The notes under the pieces are model-generated. The model saw only the letters and a program-made list of their open reading frames with translations. It ran no database searches and was not told the origin of the DNA. Made by a program: the position numbers and the translations under genes. From Thermococcus thioreducens (GTDB lineage: Archaea > Methanobacteriota_B > Thermococci > Thermococcales > Thermococcaceae), in NCBI RefSeq assembly GCF_002214545.1, contig NZ_CP015105.1:682001-746000 (forward strand): a DNA stretch of 64,000 nucleotides, written 5' to 3'. Positions 11,483-12,261 of the stretch are shown one piece after another. The first letter of the stretch is position 1. The number at the start of each line of letters is the position of its first letter.

Positions 11483-12157
11483 ATGAGGTACGTTGTCACT
11501 GTAGGGGAGCACATCAATCATATCTTCCAGAACGGAGAGCTCATGCTGCCTGAAAGAATCAAGAATGGGAACCCTAAAATCAGCAGTGCGGTCGTGCTTT
11601 ACTCTGTACGGGAAGACACCACCAAGGAATATCGCAAAAGGATACTCTCCAATGTGCGGGAAGCGGAGGAGAGATTCAAAAGCTTGAGAATTCCCGTGGT
11701 TGTAATTGAGATCGGGGAGCCCTACCGGTTTCAAGAGAGAATAGAGGAGTTCAAGAGGCTGATAATCCCCGAAACAATAATAAACATCACCGGCGGGAGG
11801 AGAATAGTCGGATACGAACTTCTGTACGCGGCTGTTCTCGTCAGAAACGAAAATCCGGATGTAATAAAATCGGTTTTTTACGTGACTGAAAAAGGTGATG
11901 TTATAGAGTTCCCGGTTGTAGATCCGAGGATCCAGCTCACCCCGTTGGAGCTCCAGATTTTAAGGATTATCCAGGATCATTCGAGAGAAACCGGGCGGCC
12001 AATGAACCTCACGGAACTTAGAAACAGACTTGAATTCATCAACGACTCAACGTACTCACTGCCATTTATAAGCGAATACGTCTCTCGTCTGGAGAGAAAA
12101 GGCTACGTCAAGAAAGAGAAGAAGGGACGAAAAAGGTTTGTAGTGCCCCTAATCTAA
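11483..12157 (+). CDS. csa3: Csa3, CARF-HTH regulator of the CRISPR locus
   Basis: Transcription regulator of 224 residues: an N-terminal CARF (Rossmann-like) domain with the ligand-binding motif [20 protein letters not shown] (about 96-115), and a C-terminal winged helix ([16 protein letters not shown] then [20 protein letters not shown]). CARF domains sense cyclic oligoadenylate or related signals; no type III genes are present here to make one, so any ligand would come from elsewhere. It is divergent from csa5. ATG 11483 has GGGGAGTGAG before it. Its stop overlaps the stop of a cas1 scrap on the other strand. Confidence 0.9.
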
Positions 12158-12261
12158 AACCACGCCACCAATGGTTCGTACTCCTTAACTCCAACGAGGT
12201 GCTTGATGCGCTTGTATGCCTCAAGGCGGATAAGCCTTTTCTTCGTCACGTTCTTCTTAAG
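12154..12261 (-). pseudogene. C-terminal remnant of cas1
   Basis: The minus strand between cas6 and csa3 reads, in one frame, [20 protein letters not shown] then [14 protein letters not shown] and stops TAG at 12154-12156. This is the typical end of Cas1 proteins (LIRLE-YK--KHL-G--EY-PF--W-). About 36 codons remain and none of the catalytic Glu/His/Asp region. The open frame continues into the cas6 tail without a start of its own. The simplest reading is that a cas1 gene once lay between csa3 and cas6 and was lost by an internal deletion. Confidence 0.78.

Follow-up and report, generated by a model that had tools for sequence, protein, structure and literature searches.

The window, a 64,000-nucleotide stretch of the Thermococcus thioreducens chromosome, contains a CRISPR-Cas locus in which an array and a putative leader are followed by cas2, cas4, a set of type I-A genes, the regulator gene csa3, a fragment of cas1 and a second cas6 (cas6_2; Table 1). 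The genome under study (G000) is a single contig of 2,065,932 bp and is rated 99.86% complete. Elsewhere in the window, positions 17566-22695 hold a 1709-aa open reading frame resembling reverse gyrase with, as judged by eye, an apparent intein-like insertion (… IANGVVSHN).

Table 1. Features of the CRISPR-Cas locus, in window coordinates
Feature	Position	Strand	Remarks
CRISPR array	2432..3284	+	13 repeat units, two leader-distal ones degenerate
Spacer A7	2946..2982		37/37 to M. vulcanius plasmid pMETVU01; 31/37 to Thermococcus plasmid pIRI33
Putative leader	3285..3793		start near-identical beside the second array of the genome
cas2	3794..4051	+	intact; TIGR01573 E 1.8e-12; 77-93% identity to relatives
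cas4	4044..4709	-	full-length ORF; TIGR00372 below cutoff; 51-73% full-length identity to relatives' cas4
cas6a	4748..5506	-	1-nt frameshift near 4765; C-terminal GFG segment out of frame
cas8a2/csa4	5472..6515	-	TIGR01914 E 2.7e-108
cas3'' HD nuclease	6516..7295	-	TIGR01596; full length vs relatives
cas3' helicase	7229..9262	-	TIGR01587; full length vs relatives
cas5a	9244..10008	-	TIGR01874
cas7/csa2	10009..11016	-	TIGR02583 E 3.4e-96
csa5 (Cas11-like small subunit)	11013..11411	-	position and homology to relatives; no NCBIfam match
csa3, CARF-HTH regulator	11483..12157	+	TIGR01884 E 4.7e-13, below cutoff; 56-82% identity, six relatives; convergent with stub
cas1b 3' stub	12154..12288	-	Cas1 residues 283-326; one in-frame stop, no body; not translatable as Cas1
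cas6_2	12257..13018	-	PDB 3pkm/3i4h E 9e-96; PF21350, PF01881; P. furiosus Cas6 orthologue
Deletion junction, cas6_2 (from 12289) / cas1 (to 12287)	12286..12291		DNA search with G058 block

The interference genes are those of a type I-A system. The large subunit, Cas8a2/Csa4, scored 362 bits against a cutoff of 232.5, and Cas7/Csa2, Cas5a and the split Cas3' and Cas3'' were likewise above the cutoffs of their models. Csa5 had no NCBIfam match, yet its gene is conserved in position in six relatives. No Cas10 was found in the genome, so I-A is the sole effector recognized in it. An earlier note, made from the DNA letters, had described cas2, cas4 and the interference genes as complete except for one frameshifted cas6, and comparison with relatives agreed, since Cas8a2, Cas3'', Cas3', Cas5a, Cas7, Csa5, Cas2 and Cas4 were all full length. 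The single-base frameshift in cas6a may be a sequencing error, and the interference genes might be beginning to decay. Processing of crRNA should be possible because cas6_2 is the orthologue of the P. furiosus Cas6 whose structure has been solved.

Further Cas6 homologues were observed. The cas6a homologue of G009 (L042, 16566-16701) also seems broken, with only its C-terminal part present as two overlapping pieces in different frames. A third, stand-alone homologue lies at genome positions 1803231-1803596 (L058), and genes like it, away from CRISPR loci, are present in most Thermococcus genomes. Cas6 was rejected as a marker of CRISPR loci, as at least one was present in 60 of 61 genomes, often apart from any such locus.

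The fragment between csa3 and cas6_2 was recognized as the 3' end of a cas1 gene in the right orientation, as the earlier note had claimed for its last 36 or so codons. Positions 12154-12261 (minus strand) were 68-90% identical to the C-termini of Cas1 from 30 Thermococcus Cas1 loci (tblastn, best E 1e-21), and a protein search of the genome with full-length Cas1b aligned residues 283-326 at 84% identity with one internal stop. DNA similarity to cas1 spanned 12155-12287, which makes the remnant slightly longer than first stated. The NCBIfam model TIGR03641 (Cas1b, type I-B) matched through positions 286-323 of its 324 (E 2.4e-9), the C-terminal end of the family; the score of 36.9, against a cutoff of 304.1, is far below that of a complete Cas1 with its catalytic body. 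Judged by its sequence, 12154-12288 is a Cas1 remnant and not a Cas1. Its stop codon overlaps the stop of the convergent csa3, as it does in G045 and G020.

The Pfam scan returned zero matches for the stub, and PF01867 matches in full-length relatives stopped short of this C-terminal stretch; NCBIfam resolved its identity, and cas1 searches that use Pfam only would overlook stubs of this kind. The silence of Pfam would suit a chance similarity, or a site at which relatives never had a cas1, and these were the outcomes against which the earlier note had set its reading. However, the real alignment score was 188 whereas the maximum among 200 dinucleotide shuffles was 40, the TIGR03641 profile matched, and the csa3-cas1 order was intact at the same site in four relatives (G058, G028, G045 and G020), which together make both of these readings hardly credible.

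No other Cas1 was found in the whole genome by PF01867, by NCBIfam TIGR00287 or by a full-length Cas1b protein (E up to 10). The claim that the window holds no further cas1 was therefore borne out and extends to the genome, which had been proposed as the place to look for a complete copy; cas1 is missing from both, as in an adaptation-deficient locus. Cas1 is the integrase of spacer acquisition, and because none is encoded, new spacers would not be integrated and Cas2 and Cas4 would be left partnerless. The earlier note had allowed for acquisition by a cas1 acting in trans, and the assembled chromosome offers no such gene. Continued acquisition with Cas1 supplied in trans, for example by an unassembled plasmid, would be consistent with the full-length cas2 and cas4, and acquisition in trans has been demonstrated in other organisms (PMC8092290), but with a complete chromosome that encodes no Cas1 of any family we consider it improbable here.

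For the array at 2432-3284, a leader on the right would imply transcription from the minus strand. A second array, at genome positions 1555443-1557218, has the same repeat apart from one base (GGAAC vs. GCAAC) and a near-identical leader start. Full repeats were uniform within each array except for the leader-distal ones. At the end away from the leader, both arrays (2459-2478; genome 1555469) close with a trailer of about 105 nt that is nearly identical in the two. It contains two degenerate repeats and a perfect hairpin, GGGGGGACGTTCCGTCCCCC, which was not seen in the other loci compared. The repeats next to the leader are identical, as had been noted, but they are a weak sign of recent acquisition, and how uniform they are gives no date for the loss. 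The plasmid match of spacer A7 is a better pointer to recent acquisition than repeat identity, although it dates the loss no better. In pMETVU01 the match is flanked by CCA (CCN-type) on the 5' side of the crRNA strand. The A7 matches in Methanocaldococcus pMETVU01 and Thermococcus pIRI33 hint at a plasmid family common to both genera. Searches of the spacers against phages, and of the two leader-proximal spacers against viral contigs, gave zero matches. Spacers A8-A10 (2983-3180) can be read as parts of possibly one zinc-finger-like protein (NLEECREWL, YCDDCGVPF, FSAHRWSNENS), and they were possibly captured from a single invader.

Alignment with related strains, as the earlier note had proposed, recovered an intact csa3-cas1...cas6 arrangement, and a DNA search mapped the deletion junction. 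Past its I-A module, G058 (L038) carries csa3, cas1b, a VapC-like gene, a second cas4, cas3, cas5t, cas7/cst2, cas8b1/cst1 and cas6_2; in G028, cas1 occupies this position too, and a cas3-type gene and cas6_2 come after it. When the 8.5-kb block of G058 was searched against the G000 genome, two adjoining pieces only were found, query bases 7-733 (cas6_2, window 12289-13015) and 8341-8473 (cas1 3' end, 12155-12287). The intervening bases 734-8340 had no counterpart in the G000 genome, a length of about 7.6 kb that is an estimate, G058 not being the true ancestor of G000. The same search found no type I-B genes or remnants elsewhere in the genome. Because only the adjacent cas6_2 and cas1 3'-end pieces of the block survive, the scrap would be the edge of one deletion, which by this comparison took the body of cas1 and the entire I-B effector together. 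The view that cas1 was reduced to a scrap therefore held, but not that cas1 alone was lost, as the adjacent I-B effector module is gone too. The last 11 or so codons of cas6_2 run over the junction into cas1 DNA. A GGGAG microhomology was sought at the junction, which cannot be judged without the sequence of the true ancestor.

A search with the stub peptide across 61 Thermococcus genomes detected clear cas1 stubs beside or near cas6, with no Cas1 body there, also in G016, G036 and G038. In G016 the final 25 codons of cas1 lie fused within cas6, at about its codon 178; in G036 the stub comes after cas6_2 and has a different (Csx9-type) I-A module on its other side; and in G038 it comes after a broken start of cas8b. 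The G038 locus (L053, 9556-11112) is decaying, with a frameshifted cas6, a cas8b broken after about 88 codons, the cas1 stub and a truncated cas2 match. A further, more distant stub in G039 almost reaches the end of its contig and may have been cut by that end rather than by a deletion. Fainter traces beside csa3 were judged by shuffling. That of G033 is a probable eroded cas1 (6 of 200 shuffles were as good in free alignment and 0-3 of 300 when anchored at the csa3 stop), and that of G007 is doubtful (78 of 200, not significant; 1-22 of 300, suggestive, only when anchored). The candidate remnant of G001 was rejected, as 112 of the 200 shuffles equaled it and the match was thus not significant. 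In G033 and G036 a complete cas1 adjoins cas4 instead. Of the 49 Thermococcus genomes with completeness of 90% or more and contamination of 5% or less, 11 gave no PF01867 match. At least three of the 11 (G000, G001 and G007), though without cas1, still carry an array and I-A effector genes. G007 is T. gammatolerans EJ3 (PMC2718504), and G014 is T. onnurineus NA1.

The junction sequence of G000 recurs only in G036 among the 94 genomes of the family (93 besides G000), and the two sides of the stub differ in their affinities. The 26 nt on the cas6 side were 73% identical to G036 and at most 65% identical to any functional cas1, whereas the 111 nt of the stub body were 89% identical to a functional cas1 and 66% identical to G036. 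Bases unseen in 30 functional genes made up 6 of the 26 positions and 3 of the 111 (Fisher p 0.0015), few sites divided at a boundary set by eye after the alignment had been viewed. The confined junction, the split affinities and the clustering of unseen bases would fit an old deletion shared with G036, after which the I-A/csa3 cassette of the G000 lineage was exchanged inside the stub; the different I-A module flanking the G036 stub points the same way. The stub would then be a mosaic of an old cas6-side junction and a fresh cas1 tail, which refines our best explanation and does not replace it. This history is possible, but besides the few sites and the choice of boundary, the 26 nt are coding sequence for the tail of Cas6 as well and may be under another constraint, and a convergent breakpoint with chance similarity could produce the same pattern. 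It is also possible that the G000 lineage underwent a recent deletion of its own, independent of that in G036, at a similar breakpoint. The stub body differs from the nearest functional cas1, that of G009, by eight synonymous codons and one nonsynonymous codon, which says that the stretch was under Cas1 selection until fairly recently, and junctions that clearly differ (inside cas6 in G016, inside cas8b in G038) argue that such deletions recur. Against an independent event stands the junction sequence common to G000 and G036. From these alignments, the two histories appear about equally likely.

On either history, the 36 codons are very probably the deletion scar of a tandem I-A/I-B locus that kept interference and lost acquisition. 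The ancestor would have carried a type I-A effector, csa3, cas1b, a type I-B effector and cas6, and the deletion of about 7.6 kb would have eliminated all I-B genes along with the body of cas1, so that the 3' ends of cas6_2 and cas1 now abut. The cell retains both arrays, an undamaged Cas6 and the complete I-A effector, and the integrity of these genes suggests that crRNAs are still made and remembered invaders still cut. The perfect match of spacer A7 to a plasmid, beside a CCN-type flank, also speaks for this explanation. The locus is thus most likely interference-only, a frozen CRISPR immunity in which, we infer, interference from stored spacers functions and acquisition does not. More tentatively, and with less than even confidence by some way, the cas6-cas1 interval may be a recurrent seam of excision and exchange in Thermococcus, at which I-B and cas1 are lost repeatedly and the leftover 3' end of cas1 serves as a homologous patch for swaps of I-A cassettes. 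If so, these lineages would carry up-to-date weapons but a frozen memory. The genomes form a natural series of archaea in which acquisition was lost but arrays and effector genes were kept, and in several of them the scar can still be read. Such a series allows study of the time over which frozen immunity remains useful, and of whether the loss of acquisition is favored. T. gammatolerans, a laboratory strain with a sequenced genome, seems to share this state and would lend itself directly to experiment.

No description of a recurrent cas6-cas1 deletion was found in the open-access papers retrieved, and related systems are known. Tandem I-A/I-B loci that share Cas1 and Cas2 have been published for Thermococcales, and T. 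siculi RG-20 and P. kukulkanii have the tandem I-A/I-B order by description (PMC11246428). The G000 locus matches the tandem locus of G058 in its I-A genes, csa3 and P. furiosus-type cas6, but lacks the body of cas1 and all of the I-B module. The T. gammatolerans EJ3 locus shares with that of G000 the I-A module, csa3, cas6, an array and a genome without cas1, but its cas1 trace is doubtful and its junction falls beyond the stop codon of cas6, within the beginning of cas8b. CRISPR loci without adaptation genes that are competent for interference are also known (PMC8730458, PMC8092290), and G000 resembles them in having an effector and arrays and no Cas1. Unlike those loci, it retains cas2 and cas4, its cas1 scar can still be read, and its genome has no other Cas1. 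The adaptation-less state is thus already known elsewhere, and its recurrence at one seam is the point of interest.
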